64,000 nt of DNA from Pseudomonadota bacterium. Its GTDB lineage: Bacteria; Pseudomonadota; Gammaproteobacteria; Burkholderiales; Burkholderiaceae_C. The first letter of the stretch is position 1, and the number at the start of each line of letters is the position of its first letter. Positions 5,149-13,303 of this stretch are shown piece after piece. Under the pieces are notes generated by a model that ran no database searches, was not told where the DNA came from, and saw only the letters and a program-made list of their open reading frames with translations. The translations under genes and the position numbers were made by a program. Location of the stretch: positions 267,487 through 331,486 of the forward strand of contig JAIUPH010000037.1 in NCBI GenBank assembly GCA_020161065.1, given 5' to 3'.

Positions 5149-6456
5149 TCAGCAGCGCGGCGGCGGCGGCGCGGCGGTCGACGGGTCCTGCAGCAGCATC
5201 TGCACGTTGCCCAGCGTGCGCTCGGCGAAGCCGCCTTCGCAATAGCTCAGGTAGAAGTGCCACAGGCGCAGCAGCGCCTCGGGGTAGCCGCGCTCGCGCA
5301 CCGCGCCGGCGTTGGCCAGCAGCCGTTCGCGCCAGGCGGCCAGCGTGGTGGCGTAGTGCGGCCCGATGTCTTCCAGGTCGACCAGGCGCAGCCCCGAGGC
5401 GCGCACGATGGACGCGGTGAGCGCGCCCACCGACGGGATGCAGCAGCCGGGGAAGACGTGGCGCTTGATGAAGTCCACCGAATCGCGCGCCGCGGCGTAC
5501 TGGCGGTCGTCGATCGTGATGGCCTGCAGCGCCATCGTGCCGCCGGGCGCCAGCAGCGCCTGGCAGCGGCCGAAGAAGGTGTCGAAGTACTGGTGGCCGA
5601 CGGCCTCGATCATCTCCACCGACACCAGCTTGTCATAGCGGCCTTGCAGCTCGCGGTAGTCGGCCAGCAGCAGCGTGATGCGGTCGCCGAGGCCGGCTTC
5701 GGCGATGCGCTGCTGCGCCAGCGCATGCTGCTGGCGCGAGATCGTGGTGGTGGTGACGCGGCAGCCGTGGTGGCGCGCCGCGTGCAGCGCCAGCGCGCCC
5801 CAGCCGCTGCCGATTTCCAGCAGGTGGTCGCCGGGCCGCAGGGCCAGCTTGCGGCACAGCCGCTCCAGCTTGGCGTGCTGCGCCTGCTCCAGCGTCAGGC
5901 CCGGCGTCTCGAACAGCGCGCACGAATAGGTCAGCGTCGGGTCGAGGAACAGCTCGAAGAAGTCGTTGCCGATGTCGTAATGCGCGGCGATGTTGCGGCG
6001 GCTGCCGCGCCGCGTGTTGCGCGCCAGCGCGTGCAGGCCGCGCCGCGTCCAGTCGGCCAGGCGCGGCCAGCCGCCGCCGTCCAGGCCGTCGAGCACGCCG
6101 CGGTTGACGAGCAGGATGCGCACCAGCGCCGTCAGGTCGTCGGCCTGCCAGTCGCCGGCCATGAACGATTCGCCGGCGCCGACCGAGCCGCCGAACGCCG
6201 CCTCGGCGTAGAAGCGCCGGTCGCGCACCTGCAGCGTGGCGTGCAGCGTGCAGCGCGCGCTGGCGCGGCCATAGGTTTCGCGGCCGCTCGGGTCGACCAC
6301 GGTGATGCGGCCATGCTCGATCTGCGCCAGCCGGCCGCGCAGCAGCCGCTCGGCGCCGCCGTCGAACCAGCGCTCCAGCGGCCGCCGGCGCGCGCCCTCG
6401 GCGTCGTTGCGGATCGAGCGGGCGCGGTCGGCCAGGGTGGCGGCGTCGGGTCTCAT
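5149..6456 (-). CDS. cfa: cyclopropane-fatty-acyl-phospholipid synthase
   Basis: A 435-residue SAM-dependent enzyme that methylenates cis double bonds in membrane phospholipid acyl chains. The sequence has the full two-part layout: an N-terminal lipid-binding domain (GRITVVDPSGRETYGR, GGSVGAGESFMAGDWQADDL) and the catalytic domain with AHYDIGNDFFELFLD, the catalytic Cys in TYSCALF, SAM motif LLEIGSGWGALAL, VSVEMIEAVGHQYFDTFF, FIKRHVFPG and FYLSYCEGGFAER. The start at 6456 overlaps the upstream stop as ATGA. It is the last gene of a six-gene lipid operon behind an ECF-type promoter. Confidence 0.93.
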   Translation of the reverse strand: MRPDAATLADRARSIRNDAEGARRRPLERWFDGGAERLLRGRLAQIEHGRITVVDPSGRETYGRASARCTLHATLQVRDRRFYAEAAFGGSVGAGESFMAGDWQADDLTALVRILLVNRGVLDGLDGGGWPRLADWTRRGLHALARNTRRGSRRNIAAHYDIGNDFFELFLDPTLTYSCALFETPGLTLEQAQHAKLERLCRKLALRPGDHLLEIGSGWGALALHAARHHGCRVTTTTISRQQHALAQQRIAEAGLGDRITLLLADYRELQGRYDKLVSVEMIEAVGHQYFDTFFGRCQALLAPGGTMALQAITIDDRQYAAARDSVDFIKRHVFPGCCIPSVGALTASIVRASGLRLVDLEDIGPHYATTLAAWRERLLANAGAVRERGYPEALLRLWHFYLSYCEGGFAERTLGNVQMLLQDPSTAAPPPPRC

Positions 6457-7229
6457 GGTCGGTCTCCGGGAAGGGCGGGGTGGTCGTGCACCGGCACGCG
6501 CTTGAGCCACAGGCGCAGCGCCTGCCAGTGGATGGCGGCCGTCACCTGCGCCGTCATCAGCGGAAAGCGCAGCAGCGCGGCGGCCAGCGCCGCGCCGCCG
6601 ATGGCCCGGCGCTGCAGCGCCAGCGTGGCGCCGAACACCGGCGCCGCGCCGGCGGCCGCGCCCTGGCGGCGCAGCGCCATGTGCACCGCCAGCGCGGGGC
6701 CCGGCGTGCTCAACCGCCAGTGGTAGGCGAGGTCCATCGGATGAAAGGGCGAGACGTGCATCGCCTTGTCGCTGCGCGCCAGCAGCCAGGGCGCACCGGG
6801 CCCGGCCTGCTGGCGCAGCACGTAGCAATGGCGCTCGCCCCAGGGGATGTTGTTGACCTCGGCGACCACGGCTTCCAGCTCGCGGCCGGCGGCGTCGAAG
6901 CAGTAGTAGAAGCTGACCGGGTTGAAGCCGTAGCCGAAGTAGCGCAGGTGCGTCAGCAGCCGCACCGGGCCGGCCGGGCGATGGCCGCCGTCGCGCGCCA
7001 CCAGGTCGCGCACGGCCTGGTCCAGCGGCTGCGCGGGGTCGCCCAGGTGGTCGCGGCGGTCGAAGCGCGCCGGCGCCGGGCGTTCGACCGACCACAGCCA
7101 GCGGCCGCGGAACACCTGGTCCAGCTCGGCCAGGTCGAGGTAGAGCATGAACAGCCGGTAGCGGAAGGCATGCGGCCGCGGCGCCAGCCGCCGGTGGTCA
7201 AGCCACCCGTGGTAGATCGCGCTGTTCAT
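6453..7229 (-). CDS. DUF1365 family protein
   Basis: A 258-residue member of DUF1365, a family almost always found beside the FAD oxidoreductase and CFA-synthase genes. The characteristic start AIYHGWLDHRRLAPRPHAFRYRLF, LLTHLRYFGYGFNPVSFYYCFD, WGERHCYVL and KAMHVSPFHPMDLAYHW are all present. It starts 32 bp inside the end of the upstream FAD oxidoreductase gene and ends in a 4-bp overlap with cfa, so the three are tightly coupled. The biochemical role is not settled to my knowledge. In Rhodobacter a homologous gene set is under RpoE/ChrR control and linked to furan fatty acid formation, suggesting action on acyl chains. Confidence 0.88.
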   Translation of the reverse strand: MNSAIYHGWLDHRRLAPRPHAFRYRLFMLYLDLAELDQVFRGRWLWSVERPAPARFDRRDHLGDPAQPLDQAVRDLVARDGGHRPAGPVRLLTHLRYFGYGFNPVSFYYCFDAAGRELEAVVAEVNNIPWGERHCYVLRQQAGPGAPWLLARSDKAMHVSPFHPMDLAYHWRLSTPGPALAVHMALRRQGAAAGAAPVFGATLALQRRAIGGAALAAALLRFPLMTAQVTAAIHWQALRLWLKRVPVHDHPALPGDRP

Positions 7230-8522
7230 GGGGGTTGCGGGCGGCGTCGAAGCGCTGCAGTGCCATCAGCGCGCTGACCACGCCGTCTTCATGGAAGCCG
7301 TAGCGCCAGTAGGCGCCGCAGTAGTGGGTGCGGCCTGGCGTGAGGGGCCCGAGCGTCGCCAGCGGTGCGCCGCTGATTTCCGCATGGCGCTGCTGCGCGG
7401 CGACGGCGGCGGTGGTGAAGAGCGGGTGCGCGTAGGTGATGCGGCGCAACACGCGCCGCGGGTCGATGGCCTGCGCGCCGGCATTGAGCGTCACGCACCA
7501 GGTGTGGCGCGATCGCAGGCCCTGCAGGATGTTCATCTGGTAGGTCAGCGCCACGCGCGGCGCCGCGCCCGGCAGCACGTGGTAGTTCCAGGCCGCCCAG
7601 GCGCGGCGCGCGCGCGGCAGCAGCGCGGTGTCGGTGTGCAGCACGGCCTCGTTGCGCTGGTAGGCGAAGGCGCCCAGCACCTCGCGCTCGGCCGGCGAAG
7701 GGTCGGCCAGCAGTTGCAGCGCCTGGTCGGCATGGCAGGCCAGGAAGACGTGGTCGAAGCGCTCGGCGCTGCGGCCGCGCAACTGCAGTTGCACGCCGTC
7801 GCCCAGGCGCCGCACGTGCTGCACGGGGCTGTTCAGGCGGATGCGGTCGCGCCACGGCGCGATCAGCCGCTCGACGTAGCGCGCCGAGCCGCCGCGCACC
7901 ACGCGCCAGGTCGGCCGGTCGTTGACGCTCAGCATGCCGTGCTGGTGCAGGAAGCGCACGAAGAAGCGGGCCGGAAAGTCGAGCATCAGCGCCGGGTCGG
8001 TCGACCAGATGGCCGCGCCCATCGGCACCAGGTAGTCGCTGACGAAGCGGCCGCCGAAGCCATGCTCGCGCAGCAGCTCGCGCAGCGGCGTCTCGGCGCC
8101 GCCTTGCTGCAGCCACTGCGGCGCCACGCGGTGGAAGCGCAGGATCTCGGCCAGCATGCCGATGAACGAGGGCCGCAGCAGGTTGCGCCGCTGCGCGAAC
8201 AGGCCGCCGAGCGAGCTGCCGTTGTATTCCAGCCCGCGCGCGTCGTTGCGCACCGAGAAGCTCATCGAGCTGGGCTGCGAGGCGACGCCCAGCTCGTCGA
8301 GCAGCGCGACGAAGTGCGGGTAGGTGCGGTCGTTGAAGACGATGAAGCCGGTGTCGACGTGCTGCACCTCGTCGCCCAGCTCGATGCGGTGCGTGTGCGC
8401 GTGGCCGCCGACGTGGGCGTCGGCCTCGAACATCGTGATGCGGTGGCCGGCGGCGTGCAGCCGGTGCGCGGCCACGTTGCCGGCGATGCCGCTGCCGACG
8501 ATGGCGATGGCAAGCGGCCGCG

Positions 8523-8526
<4 letters not shown>
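7198..8526 (-). CDS. FAD-dependent oxidoreductase (amine-oxidase fold, lipid-cluster type)
   Basis: A 442-residue flavoprotein with an N-terminal dinucleotide fold (AIAIVGSGIAGNVAAHRL ... ITMFEADAHVGGHAHT). It belongs to the NAD/FAD-binding group that accompanies DUF1365 and cyclopropane fatty acid synthase genes. Typical inner motifs are VDTGFIVFNDRTYPHF, SFSVR, MGAAIWSTDP and PTWRVVRGGSARYVERL. The start ATG at 8526 overlaps the stop of the desaturase gene by 4 bp. The probable role is oxidation or desaturation of a phospholipid acyl chain; this is an inference from gene context and from related Rhodobacter loci. Confidence 0.87.
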
Positions 8527-9409
<883 letters not shown>

Positions 9410-9413
<4 letters not shown>

Positions 9414-10183
9414 GGACGCGGCCTCCCCGGCACGAAGGCGTTGGTGCGGCGCGCATAGTCGGCATAGGCGCTGCGCTGCTGGCCGAGGTGCGCTTCCAGC
9501 AGCGGCACGCCCGAGACCTTGAGCAGCAGCAGCGTCATCAGCAGCGGCGAGACCACGCTCCACCAGCCGCCGCCGGCCGCCGCCACCAGCCAGGCGCCCC
9601 ACCAGACGCAGCATTCGCCGAAGTAGTTGGGGTGGCGCGAATAACGCCACAGTCCGCTGTCCAGCACGCGGCCGCGCTGCGCCGGGTCGGCCCGGAAGCG
9701 CGCGAGCTGCCGATCGGCCAGCGCCTCGAAGGCGATGCCGAAGGCCATCAACGCCAGGCCGATGCCGTCCAGCATCCGCCAAGGCGCGGCGCTGGCCGCC
9801 GCGGCCATCAAGGGCCAGGCGACCACCCAGCCCAGCAACGCCTGCAGCGCGAACACCAGCCACAGGCTCTTGAGCCCGAAGTGCGGCTGGTGGCGCGCGC
9901 GCATGGCCTGGTAGCGCGGGTCTTCGGGCCGCCCGCGCGCGCGCCAGGCGAGGTGCAGCGACAGCCGCAGCGCCCAGACCAGCGCCAGCGCCAGCAGCGG
10001 CCCGGCGCGCGGCCCGGTCTCGTGCGGCAGCGCCGCCGCGGCCACGGCCGCCGGCAGCCAGACCAGGAACGACCAGGCGATGTCGACGATGCTCACGTCG
10101 CGCAGCGGCAGGCTGGCCAGCCAGACCGCGAAGGCCAGGCCAGCGCCGGCGGCCAGGCCCAGCAAGGCGGCGGCGGCCGTCAT
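9410..10183 (-). CDS. DUF1295 / steroid 5-alpha-reductase-like membrane protein
   Basis: A 257-residue multi-pass protein of the DUF1295 group. It has about seven hydrophobic segments and the C-terminal signature LWRYSRHPNYFGECCVWWGAWL shared with isoprenylcysteine methyltransferases and steroid reductases. The start ATG at 10183 (MTAAAALLGLAAG) overlaps the upstream methyltransferase stop by 4 bp. The family is enriched beside cyclopropane-synthase-like genes. The reaction is unknown; reduction or methylation of a lipid is plausible. Confidence 0.85.
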
Positions 10184-11223
10184 CGGCGCGGCTCGAACAG
10201 GTAGTGCGCCACCCACCAGGCCTGTCCGCGCTCATAACCGAACAGCTCGGCGCACGACAGGAAGAACAGCCGCCAGCGCATCCACCACAGGCCGGCCTGT
10301 TCCGCCCCATAGGTGGCGGCCAGCAGCGGCCAGACCTCGGCGCGGCGCGCGTCCAGGTTGTCCAGCCAGGCCTGCGCGGTGCGCGCGTAGTGGCTGCCGT
10401 CCCAGCGCCAGCGCGAGACCAGGCGCAGGTCGTCCTGCAGGCGCAGCGCGAGGTCGTCGCTGGGCATCATGCCGCCGGCGAAGAAGTGGCGCGCCATCCA
10501 GTCGGAGCCGTCGCGGTCTTCGAAGGCGTAGGGCGTGCTCCGGTGCACGAACACGTGCATGAAGAAGCGCCCACCGGGCCGCAGCCAGCCGGCCACGCGG
10601 CGGAACATCTCCGGCCAGTTGCGCAGGTGCTCGAACATCTCCACCGAGACCACGCGGTCGAAGCGCTCGCCGTCGGGCGGGCTGAAGCCGGCGACGTTGG
10701 CGGTGATGACCTGCAGGTTGGCCAGGCCGCGGCGCCGCGCCTCGGCCTCGATGTGTTCGCGCTGCGAGTGCGAGTTCGACAAGGCCGTGATGCGGCTGGC
10801 CGGAAAGTGCTCGGCCATCCACAGCGACAGCGAGCCCCAGCCGCAACCCAGTTCCAGCACGCGCTGGCCGTCGGCCAGGCCGGCGCGGCTGCAGGTGGCG
10901 TCCAGCGCGGCGGCCTCGGCGTCGTCGAGCCGCTGCACGCCCGGCGGCCACCAGGCCGAGCTGTACTTGCGGTGCCGCCCCAGCACCTGGGCGAAGAAGG
11001 CGGCCGGCAGCTCGTAGTGCTGTTCGTTGGCCTTCTCGGGCAGCAGCGCGACCGGCGCTTCGCGCATCGCGGCGACGAAAGCCTCGCTGCGCGCGGCGGC
11101 CGCGTCGGCATCGCCGGCGTCGATCTCGGCCAGCCGCTGCTGCAACAGCCGCCGGATGCCGCGGCGGACCAGGCGGTCGGGCACCACGCCGCGCTCGGTG
11201 AAGGCCAGGGCAAGCTGGGACAT
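10180..11223 (-). CDS. SAM-dependent methyltransferase, cyclopropane-synthase-like (second paralogue)
   Basis: A 347-residue class I methyltransferase related to cyclopropane fatty acid synthase and to coclaurine-methyltransferase-like proteins. SAM motif I is VLELGCGWGSLSLWMAE, followed by VVSVEMFEHLRNW. Two differences from the canonical enzyme encoded at 5149-6456 are visible: it lacks the N-terminal lipid-binding domain, and the position of the catalytic Cys is Ser (KYSSAWW). It therefore probably adds a methyl group to a lipid rather than making cyclopropane rings. The start at 11223 is supported by GAGGAG seven bases upstream and by the mapped promoter-like site at 11284-11313, which puts a longer start at 11274 almost on the transcription start. 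Confidence 0.88.
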   Translation of the reverse strand: MSQLALAFTERGVVPDRLVRRGIRRLLQQRLAEIDAGDADAAAARSEAFVAAMREAPVALLPEKANEQHYELPAAFFAQVLGRHRKYSSAWWPPGVQRLDDAEAAALDATCSRAGLADGQRVLELGCGWGSLSLWMAEHFPASRITALSNSHSQREHIEAEARRRGLANLQVITANVAGFSPPDGERFDRVVSVEMFEHLRNWPEMFRRVAGWLRPGGRFFMHVFVHRSTPYAFEDRDGSDWMARHFFAGGMMPSDDLALRLQDDLRLVSRWRWDGSHYARTAQAWLDNLDARRAEVWPLLAATYGAEQAGLWWMRWRLFFLSCAELFGYERGQAWWVAHYLFEPRR

Positions 11224-11283: not shown

Positions 11284-11313
11284 CTTCTACGCGCGCGCGC
11301 TGGAATCGGATCA
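11284..11313 (-). promoter_or_regulatory. ECF-sigma promoter for the lipid-modification operon
   Basis: On the minus strand TGATCC (11313-11308), an 18-bp spacer and TAGAAG (11289-11284). The same arrangement occurs facing the sigma factor gene and the DUF2177 gene. TGATCC is the -35 element I recall for RpoE/ChrR-type (ECF11) promoters. Predicted transcription would start near 11277, giving a leader of about 54 bases to the methyltransferase ATG. Confidence 0.72.
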
Positions 11314-11329
11314 CCGCCGTCCGCGGCCG

Positions 11330-11359
11330 TGATCCAATCGGCCATGGACCGCGTACAAG
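11330..11359 (+). promoter_or_regulatory. ECF-sigma promoter for the sigma/anti-sigma operon (autoregulation)
   Basis: TGATCC (11330-11335), an 18-bp spacer and TACAAG (11354-11359), divergent from the matching minus-strand site 16 bp away. Transcription would begin near 11366, which rules out the in-frame ATGs at 11329 and 11344 as starts of the sigma gene. Confidence 0.72.
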
Positions 11360-11445
11360 CGCGCATGGGGCGCGTAAGTCCATCCTGCTGGCGTCCGGCC
11401 ACCGTGCCGGCGCGCTGGCGCGCGGTTCCGCCTCGCCTGGGCATC

Positions 11446-12060
11446 GTGACTGCCGCCGACCAACCGATGCCGCCGCTGCCGACCACCGACGAGCTTCACC
11501 AATGGCTGCAGGCCGTCGCCGAGCGCGGCGACCGCGGCGCCTTCGCCGCGCTGTTCCGCCATTTCGCGCCGCGGCTGAAAGGCTTTCTCGTGCGCTCGGG
11601 CTGCAGCGAGGCGCTGGCCGAGGAACTGGTGCAGGAAGCGATGGTGCAGTTGTGGCGCCGCGCCGCCTCGTTCGACCCGGCGCGCGCGCGGCTCTCGACC
11701 TGGCTCTATACCATCGTGCGCAACCTGCGCATCGACCAGCAACGCCGCCTGGCCGCCCGCCCTGGCGCCGAGGCGGCGACCGACGACGACGCGGCCGACG
11801 ACGGCTTCGACGCGCTGGGCGGCGACGCCGCGCTGCAGCCCGAGGCGCAGTTGCTGGCCGCGCAGCGCGAGCGCAAGCTGCGCCGCGCGCTGGCCGCGCT
11901 GCCGCCCGAGCAGGCGCAGGTGCTGCGGCTGTCGTTCTACGAAGAGCACGCGCATCCGGCGATCGCCCGCGACCTGGGCATTCCGCTGGGCACGGTGAAG
12001 TCGCGCATCCGGCTGGCGGTGGCGCAACTGCGGCGCCTGCTCGACGGGCTCGAACCATGA
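11446..12060 (+). CDS. ECF RNA polymerase sigma factor, RpoE/ChrR group
   Basis: A 204-residue extracytoplasmic-function sigma factor. Region 2 is seen in FAALFRHFAPRLKGFLVRSG and LSTWLYTIVRNLRIDQQRR, and region 4 in LAALPPEQAQVLRLSFYEEHAH with the HTH AIARDLGIPLGTVKSRIRLA. The GTG at 11446 is chosen because the promoter-like site at 11330-11359 excludes upstream ATGs; an ATG at 11467 (MPPLPTTDE) is equally possible, and neither has a strong ribosome-binding site. The gene for a ChrR-type anti-sigma factor follows after 7 bp, so the pair should form a stress-released switch, probably for singlet oxygen or membrane peroxidation. Confidence 0.9.
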   Translation: MTAADQPMPPLPTTDELHQWLQAVAERGDRGAFAALFRHFAPRLKGFLVRSGCSEALAEELVQEAMVQLWRRAASFDPARARLSTWLYTIVRNLRIDQQRRLAARPGAEAATDDDAADDGFDALGGDAALQPEAQLLAAQRERKLRRALAALPPEQAQVLRLSFYEEHAHPAIARDLGIPLGTVKSRIRLAVAQLRRLLDGLEP

Positions 12061-12067
12061 TCGACCG

Positions 12068-12751
12068 ATGATCCACCACCACCCCGCCGACGACCTGCTG
12101 CTGGCGCACGCCGCCGGCCGGCTGCGGCCCGGCCCGGCGCTGCTGCTGGACGTGCACCTCGAAGGCTGCGCCGACTGCCGCCGACAACGGCAGTTGCTGC
12201 ACGCGGTGGGCGGCGCGCTGATCGAAGACGCCGAACCGCTGACGCTGGCGCCCGAAGCCTGGGCGCGCACGCTGGCGCGCATCGACGCCGGCGGGCCGCC
12301 GCCGGCGCCACGCTCCGCGGCCGGTGTCAGGGCGGGCCCCGGCGCGCCGGGCGGCGGGGCGCTGGCGCCGCCGGCCGGCATGAACTGGCCGCAAGCCTTG
12401 CGTGCCTGCCGCAGCGGCGGCTGGCGCTGGATGGGCCCCGGCATGCGCTTCGCGCGGCTGACGCTGCCGGCCGATCCGCAGGCCGGGCTTTTGCTGCTGC
12501 GCATCGGCCCCGGGCGCAGCCTGGCGCGCCACGGCCACGACGGGATGGAACTCACCCAGGTGCTGCACGGCCGCTTCGACGACGGCCGCAGCGGCTTCGG
12601 CCCCGGCGACTTCGACGCCACCGATGACACGGTGCGCCACCAACCGGTGGTGCAGCCGGGCGGCGAATGCGTGTGCCTGGCCTACGTGGAACGGCGGCTG
12701 CGCTTCGAGGGGCGCGTGGCGGCCTGGATCGGCGGCTGGGTCGGGCTGTAG
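12068..12751 (+). CDS. chrR: ChrR family anti-sigma factor with zinc and cupin domains
   Basis: A 227-residue anti-sigma factor. The N-terminal zinc-binding anti-sigma domain has H5, H30, C34 and C37, matching the H6/H31/C35/C38 set of Rhodobacter ChrR. The C-terminal cupin domain has H155, H157, E161 and H191, with the same spacing as the ChrR metal site. The two domains are joined by a Pro/Ala/Gly-rich linker near residues 76-105. It sits 7 bp behind the sigma gene. The family sequesters its sigma factor until singlet oxygen or organic peroxides destabilise it, and this stimulus is inferred here. Confidence 0.9.
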   Translation: MIHHHPADDLLLAHAAGRLRPGPALLLDVHLEGCADCRRQRQLLHAVGGALIEDAEPLTLAPEAWARTLARIDAGGPPPAPRSAAGVRAGPGAPGGGALAPPAGMNWPQALRACRSGGWRWMGPGMRFARLTLPADPQAGLLLLRIGPGRSLARHGHDGMELTQVLHGRFDDGRSGFGPGDFDATDDTVRHQPVVQPGGECVCLAYVERRLRFEGRVAAWIGGWVGL

Positions 12752-13225
12752 TCAGGCCGAGACCGCTCTTGGCGGCACGAAGCGGCGCAGCGCGGCATGG
12801 GCCGCCGCGGCGCTGGCTGCGGTGACGAAAGCGCCCCAGGCCAGGTCGACCAGCGTCACGCTCCACGGCCAGCCGCGCAGCGTGGCCTGGTTGGTCAGGT
12901 CGTAGGTGGCATAGGCCACCAGCCCGAAGGCGGCGCCGCGCACCGCGGCGGCGCGAACGCCGGCGGCCGGCAGCACCGCGAACCCGGTGACGCCGGCCAG
13001 GTAGATCACGTAGAAGGCGGCGGCCGCCCGCACGTCGAAACCGGCCTGCATCAAGTGGCCGATCGCCGGGCGGTACAAGCGCTCGGCCATCGTCACCAGC
13101 CACAGCGCATCGAGCGCCAGGAAGGCCACGGCGCCGGCGGCGTAGGCGACGGCGAAAGCGCTCGCAGATGGGCGCGTGGCAGGCTGCTGGTGCTGCCGTG
13201 GTGGCGGCGGTGGTCGTGGGGTCAT
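12752..13225 (-). CDS. DUF2177 family membrane protein
   Basis: A 157-residue protein with four hydrophobic segments and the DUF2177 signature VAFLALDALWLVTMAERLYRP near the start, then DLTNQATLRGWPW and DLAWGAFVTA. The ATG at 13225 is chosen; it lies about 42 bases behind the predicted start from the promoter at 13274-13303. It ends directly against the stop of chrR, on the opposite strand. DUF2177 genes recur in sigma/ChrR/lipid loci, and the promoter places this one in the same regulon. Function is unknown. Confidence 0.85.
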   Translation of the reverse strand: MTPRPPPPPRQHQQPATRPSASAFAVAYAAGAVAFLALDALWLVTMAERLYRPAIGHLMQAGFDVRAAAAFYVIYLAGVTGFAVLPAAGVRAAAVRGAAFGLVAYATYDLTNQATLRGWPWSVTLVDLAWGAFVTAASAAAAHAALRRFVPPRAVSA

Positions 13226-13273
13226 CGGCGCTGGTCCATTCCGAAGCCGCGCGGCCATCGCGCCGCGCTGCGG

Positions 13274-13303
13274 CTTGTACGCAGCGCGCGTGGCGGCGGA
13301 TCA
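13274..13303 (-). promoter_or_regulatory. third ECF-sigma promoter, for the DUF2177 gene
   Basis: On the minus strand TGATCC (13303-13298), an 18-bp spacer and TACAAG (13279-13274), the same as the promoter in front of the sigma gene. This extends the regulon to a gene on the far side of the sigma/anti-sigma pair. Confidence 0.7.

Follow-up and report, generated by a model that had tools for sequence, protein, structure and literature searches.

An ECF11 sigma factor and ChrR anti-sigma factor with three matching promoters and a divergent lipid operon in a betaproteobacterial genome

We analysed a window of 64,000 nucleotides from a Pseudomonadota genome (assembly GCA_020161065.1, contig JAIUPH010000037.1, positions 267,487 to 331,486 of the forward strand; coordinates below are those of the window), in which the gene for an extracytoplasmic function (ECF) sigma factor is directly followed by that for a ChrR-family zinc anti-sigma factor. 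A lipid operon lies on one side of this pair and a gene for a DUF2177 membrane protein on the other, and the switch and its predicted target lipid genes occupy one 8-kb block. We consider it highly probable that the block is an autoregulated ECF11 sigma/ChrR regulon with three cognate promoters. Its features, with the family or structural matches (E-values, unless bits are given) that identify them, are as follows.

5149 to 6456, minus strand: CFA2, a methyltransferase of the cyclopropane-fatty-acid (CFA) synthase family (CMAS; PF02353, 6.4e-85; 6bqc, 1.3e-53), UfaM-like candidate
6453 to 7229, minus strand: DUF1365 protein (PF07103, 1.1e-84), UfaO-like at family level
7198 to 8526, minus strand: flavin adenine dinucleotide (FAD) amine-oxidase-family protein (PF01593, 3.2e-25), UfaD-like at family level
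8523 to 9413, minus strand: acyl-CoA-type fatty acid desaturase (PF00487; 4ymk, 1.1e-26)
9410 to 10183, minus strand: DUF1295 membrane protein (PF06966, 3.7e-68)
10180 to 11223, minus strand: CFA1, an S-adenosylmethionine-dependent methyltransferase, coclaurine N-methyltransferase-like (6gkv, 4.1e-65), candidate FufM-like enzyme
11284 to 11313, minus strand: ECF11 promoter of the lipid operon, TGATCC (11313-11308), N16, CGTA, G, AAG
11330 to 11359, plus strand: ECF11 promoter of the sigma/chrR operon, TGATCC-N18-TACAAG on direct reading
11446 to 12060, plus strand: ECF sigma factor of the ECF11/RpoE-ChrR type, starting at GTG 11446 or ATG 11467
12068 to 12751, plus strand: ChrR zinc anti-sigma factor with a cupin-like domain (TIGR02451, 166 bits; cut-off 124.5)
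12752 to 13225, minus strand: DUF2177 four-helix membrane protein (PF09945, 2.3e-39)
13274 to 13303, minus strand: ECF11 promoter of the DUF2177 gene, TGATCC-N18-TACAAG on direct reading

The three promoters were first proposed in an initial annotation made from the sequence alone, and their positions, strands, hexamers and 18-base spacing proved exact on direct reading. The -10 element, given there as TANAAG after a spacer of 18, had to be corrected to CGTA after a spacer of 16, as a CG that precedes the TA in all three sites had been counted as spacer. The full motif is thus TGATCC-N16-CGTA-N-AAG, and it is identical to the published ECF11 consensus. TGATCC-N16-CGTA is the consensus from chromatin immunoprecipitation sequencing for the ECF11-type sigma factor PSPTO_1043 of Pseudomonas syringae (PMC5507510), and the rpoE2 promoters of Shewanella read TGATCC...CGTA (PMC4336711). 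The trailing AAG is a local feature: of the 140 distinct sites seen in relatives, 30 carry it.

The best solved relative of the sigma factor is Rhodobacter sphaeroides RpoE (2q1z_A, 6.8e-34), and that of the anti-sigma factor is ChrR (2z2s_B, 2.8e-31). All eight zinc ligands of ChrR are present (H5/H30/C34/C37 and H155/H157/E161/H191), the R. sphaeroides residues being H6/H31/C35/C38 and H141/H143/E147/H177 (PMC6852236). Alignment bears out the earlier claim that every metal ligand is kept at the same spacing, and the eight do not vary in any of the 16 sequences aligned (the window's and 15 others). C201 and C203 are likewise invariant in all 16; these are the counterparts of C187 and C189, which are reported to be dispensable for the response in R. 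sphaeroides (PMC6852236). Between its two domains, the window's ChrR has a linker of 30 residues (12287-12376), compared with 19-27 in the 15 aligned homologues.

Conservation of the motif was followed in two sets of relatives. In the first, 150 genomes of the same family, our own included, were surveyed, and ChrR, called by TIGR02451 above its cut-off, was found in 15, again including our own. The sequence TGATCC-N16-CGTANAAG occurred in 8 of these 15 genomes as against 5 of the 135 without ChrR (Fisher P 1.3e-6). The second set comprised named loci, the best 80 of 146 confirmed relatives from a ChrR alignment search of genome contigs. These loci are not independent, as 32 of 80 are labelled Variovorax and the set includes 11 of the 15 unnamed loci a second time. 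Genes lying too close to the end of a locus, or whose match began past residue 40, are omitted from the promoter counts. Within these bounds, exact TGATCY-N16-CGTA lay upstream of 77 of 79 sigma genes, the remaining two having a spacer of 15 (L096) and no motif (L135). It also preceded 42 of 64 genes for CFA1 (the first gene of the lipid operon in the window), 15 of 68 DUF2177 homologues (13 of 68 in a narrower upstream stretch) and 9 of 72 ufaD genes. In contrast, no exact motif preceded any of 71 ufaO, 64 DUF1295, 48 CFA2, 9 desaturase or 81 chrR genes in the 80 named loci. Spacers of 11-15 and 17-22 combined gave three sites near any of the tested genes. When one mismatch was allowed at spacer 16, the counts rose to 53 of 64 for CFA1 and 31 of 72 for ufaD, and the same relaxation also caught 11 of 81 chrR, 3 of 64 DUF1295 and 1 of 9 desaturase genes.

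Three observations in these sets weigh against a general coupling of motif, switch and lipid genes. In G088, one of the eight ChrR genomes with the AAG-ended motif, the match lies only away from the ChrR locus. Two of the 15 unnamed loci (L067 and L071) carry a sigma/ChrR pair with neither an exact motif nor lipid genes nearby. Finally, 5 of the 80 named loci have no lipid-gene match of at least 60 bits (L135, which is the same as L071, L084, L094, L121 and L140), L084 and L140 being short loci. The assignment of the host to the betaproteobacteria, made in the initial annotation, is well founded because genomes of the family share identical loci with named Variovorax, Ramlibacter, Pelomonas and Roseateles records.

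Read from its promoter, the lipid operon has the order CFA1, DUF1295, desaturase, UfaD-like, DUF1365 and CFA2. In R. sphaeroides and Rhodopseudomonas palustris, the enzymes of furan-fatty-acid synthesis are UfaM, UfaD and UfaO, with FufM adding a second methyl group; UfaO carries DUF1365 (PMC7380195). UfaD is RSP_1091, and its P. syringae orthologue is named a flavin-containing amine oxidase. CFA1 finds its nearest match in the coclaurine N-methyltransferase 6gkv (4.1e-65), the CFA synthase 6bqc being far more distant (5.3e-26). CFA1 is predicted to carry out a FufM-like step because it is coclaurine N-methyltransferase-like, as FufM presumably is by way of Arabidopsis AT4G33110, which we take to be a protein of that kind. 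FufM is 37.87% identical to AT4G33110 (PMC10940516). For the DUF1295 protein, no solved relative was found at E<=0.1. On this gene content, the product of the operon is rather likely to be a furan fatty acid, and the furan fatty acids would probably be dimethylated.

The mechanism that we infer from these parts is a familiar one. ChrR, with a zinc in the N-terminal anti-sigma domain and a second in the cupin-like domain, would sequester the sigma factor until an oxidant tied to membrane-lipid damage (singlet oxygen, an organic hydroperoxide or superoxide) inactivates it. The freed sigma factor would then start three transcripts at TGATCC-N16-CGTA, namely sigma-chrR, the six-gene lipid operon and DUF2177. 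The enzymes of the lipid operon are expected to desaturate and methylate phospholipid acyl chains, yielding furan fatty acids, probably dimethylated ones. The initial annotation had described a locally encoded, autoregulated singlet-oxygen or peroxide response in a betaproteobacterium. Of this description, the ECF11 sigma/ChrR pair, the autoregulatory promoter, the three cognate promoters, the compact regulon and the host are all borne out by the sequence; singlet oxygen or peroxide as the signal is inferred.

It is quite possible, if short of likely, that the regulon is real but answers to superoxide or general envelope stress, and that it yields a cyclopropane or some other methylated acyl chain instead of a furan fatty acid directed against singlet oxygen. 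The most similar operon among the published ones compared points that way: in Stenotrophomonas maltophilia, a nine-gene operon with a desaturase, an oxidoreductase and two CFA-family enzymes, divergent from rpoEc-chrR, contributed to menadione tolerance, the system having no singlet-oxygen role, and activation of the sigma factor raised superoxide tolerance while leaving tolerance of singlet oxygen and hydrogen peroxide unaffected (PMC11832516). As for a source of singlet oxygen, the photosynthetic reaction-centre family PF00124 had no match in our genome. The Ufa-like and FufM-like assignments are made by family and gene context, and DUF1365 occurs in 111 of the 150 same-family genomes and is thus common without ChrR, so that its presence alone is no marker of the regulon. 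These points count against singlet oxygen and furan fatty acids as signal and product. In their favour, DUF1365 and an FAD oxidase beside a CFA-family enzyme form the furan-fatty-acid gene set, and the ECF11 promoters of P. syringae respond to both singlet oxygen and tert-butyl hydroperoxide (PMC5507510).

The whole genome (6,291,011 bases in 41 contigs) was scanned for the motif, the expected counts being computed from the base composition of the window (71.4% G+C). The search proposed with the initial annotation, TGATCC-N17..19-TANAAG, gave six matches, of which three have N18, and these are the window sites, lying within 2 kb. This N18 pattern, with an expectation of 0.25 per genome, was derived from the sites themselves, whereas the TGATCC-N16-CGTA consensus is independent and published. 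TGATCY-N16-CGTA matched four times, three times in the locus and once over the start of an open reading frame; it is therefore not enriched genome-wide (6.1 expected), and the non-random feature is the clustering of three of its four matches in 2,020 bp. The refined TGATCC-N16-CGTANAAG (expectation 0.03), with up to one mismatch, gave five matches, the exact ones being the three window sites only. Within the window, up to two mismatches gave four matches against a mean of 0.36 over 100 shuffles, one of which reached four.

From these scans, the idea of a self-contained regulon holds only for strict and one-mismatch motifs; in P. syringae, ECF11 promoters that function may stray further from the consensus. 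It is conceivable, though on balance doubtful, that the regulon is not closed and that weaker promoters elsewhere, for example before a photolyase gene, also belong to it. Functional P. syringae sites do deviate from consensus (PMC5507510), phrB is part of the core regulon in other bacteria (PMC4336711, PMC5507510), and in some relatives the motif stands before fasciclin genes. Against this, the sole photolyase match in our genome has no upstream site within two mismatches of the ten core bases, and only two one-mismatch sites lie off the locus. In these checks we found no wider regulon in our own genome; the off-locus matches lie in or over long open frames, although such frames are common at 71% G+C. 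A chance or compositional origin of the three matches is very improbable and was rejected, for although the N18 pattern was taken from the sites and the genomic count of TGATCY-N16-CGTA is below expectation, three or more matches in 2,020 bp have a Poisson P of ~1e-9 and the spacer is conserved exactly across 80 loci, just as the initial annotation had held the repeated hexamer and spacing at three gene starts to be unlikely by chance.

A further 22 exact N16 sites in the 80 named loci had first been classed as lying elsewhere and were re-examined. Six lie within ufaD on the opposite strand, a coding coincidence; four are found 744-825 bp ahead of DUF2177, the one in L078 coinciding with the start of an additional open reading frame; and one (L084) precedes a CFA1 match omitted from the list of starts. 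Another precedes a DUF3455 gene at L112:5048. Five more precede fasciclin-domain genes near ChrR loci, at L103:5859, L122:5825, L125:5786 and L129:5806 (minus strand) and L153:14290 (plus strand), and these motif-preceded genes are probable members of an extended regulon.

Two gene layouts dominate among the relatives. In the commoner one, ufaD-ufaO-CFA2 is divergent from sigma-chrR while CFA1-DUF1295-DUF2177 points towards chrR from the opposite flank, and the motif is often present upstream of CFA1. The three loci of this layout that were inspected (L083, L087 and L107) have an extra open reading frame between DUF1295 and DUF2177. It matches DUF6134 at L087:11165-11797 and L107:11125-11763; DUF6134 was not found in our own genome, by a search in which no control genome matched either. 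The second layout, which the window shares with 9 of the 80 named loci, has the lipid genes and the desaturase together in a single operon that diverges from sigma. The -35 boxes of the two divergent promoters are 16 bp apart in the window, and the corresponding distance in the nine loci is 12-237 bp (12-34 in eight of them). Autoregulation of sigma and transcription of the lipid operon are plausibly in competition at these promoters, because two holoenzymes could hardly fit together at 16 bp. The distribution of the block may be patchy even among members of the genus: in the only same-genus genome drawn (G094), neither ChrR nor DUF2177 nor DUF1365 was matched. A clean empty site was sought in that genome and none was seen; the 19.9 kb surrounding its PrpF gene contained, apart from PrpF itself, nothing that reached 150 bits against the first 34 kb of the window.

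DUF2177 was found in 14 of 15 ChrR-bearing genomes and in 25 of the 135 others (Fisher P 1e-8), and is strongly linked, though not confined, to genomes with ChrR. A motif of its own precedes 9 of 13 DUF2177 genes detached from CFA1-DUF1295 compared with 9 of 58 that are attached (L075, with no flank, omitted; kinship uncorrected), which is suggestive of DUF2177 gaining its own promoter once it leaves the CFA1-DUF1295 operon. A structural model, built from an alignment of the window protein and 35 of 68 extracted homologues, is a four-helix membrane bundle (predicted local distance difference test score 94, predicted template-modelling score 0.85). Despite this confident model, no fold match was obtained in the PDB at E<=0.001, and a fold-based function was set aside. 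DUF2177 genes also adjoin heliorhodopsin genes (PMC11109279).

A parallel comes from a green alga. In Chlamydomonas, 104 singlet-oxygen genes require SAK1 (PMC4067076, Table 5), and this one list includes CFA1 (log2 induction 5.92), CFA2 (4.05), DUF1365 (3.50), DUF1295 (3.04), DUF2177 (3.25) and the fasciclin FAS2 (4.01). Because two CFA enzymes, DUF1365, DUF1295, DUF2177 and fasciclin recur in both responses, we tentatively raise the idea, which we think somewhat unlikely, that DUF2177 and DUF1295 are an unrecognized core of a furan-fatty-acid module of lipid-oxidant defence common to proteobacteria (under ECF11) and green algae (under SAK1), the window's block being a compact version with competing back-to-back promoters. 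Chlamydomonas differs in being a eukaryote with another regulator, and homology was judged from the printed annotation only. In a literature search with most subscription papers outside its reach, at least two of five such DUF names co-occurred only in PMC4067076 and an Aeromonas paper, and DUF1295 was not found named with ChrR or furan fatty acids. DUF2177 was named in three of the papers within reach, and the one that also treats singlet oxygen and cyclopropane synthases does not mention ChrR.

Set beside known systems, the regulon is of a known kind, and its locus-restricted motif and single lipid operon with a desaturase are a modest variation. The R. sphaeroides sigma-E/ChrR system likewise pairs a sigma factor with a zinc anti-sigma factor, has the eight ligands at matching intervals, and includes furan-fatty-acid genes in its core regulon. 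There, however, sigma-E directly transcribes ~13 genes, including rpoHII, which extends the response (PMC6852236), whereas in our genome the exact sites are confined to one locus, the desaturase, DUF1295 and DUF2177 are added, and no site was found before the photolyase gene. The most similar operon among the systems compared is that of S. maltophilia (rpoEc-chrR-chrA and smlt2375-2367), where a divergent lipid operon, again with a desaturase, an FAD oxidoreductase and two CFA-family enzymes, is sigma-dependent by RNA sequencing (PMC11832516). It differs in having chrA in the sigma operon, nine lipid genes in another order and a phenotype of superoxide tolerance, and no DUF2177 is named. In P. 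syringae, PSPTO_1043/1042 share the TGATCC-N16-CGTA consensus and core-regulon orthologues (PMC5507510), but their targets are numerous and scattered, among them phrB, katG and a glyoxalase. In R. palustris, RPA2569-2571 are consecutive ufaD, ufaO and ufaM (PMC7380195), an order matching that of the final three genes in the window's operon; fufM (RPA0924) lies elsewhere in that genome, whereas the window's candidate methylase gene is the first of the same operon. The same literature search, with its same restriction on subscription papers, found a lake-community paper alone for ChrR with betaproteobacteria, singlet oxygen and sigma factor, and nothing on ChrR with Variovorax and anti-sigma.

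In summary, comparative evidence that is exact to the spacer now places a well-studied stress circuit in many betaproteobacterial genera. With three promoters and nine genes, the system is small enough for transfer to a laboratory strain. DUF2177 and DUF1295, families of unassigned function, gain a concrete context in membrane-lipid oxidation. The most valuable lead is the gene set common to the algal singlet-oxygen response and, if the Chlamydomonas parallel is true, bacteria and algae would have in common one module for coping with singlet oxygen.

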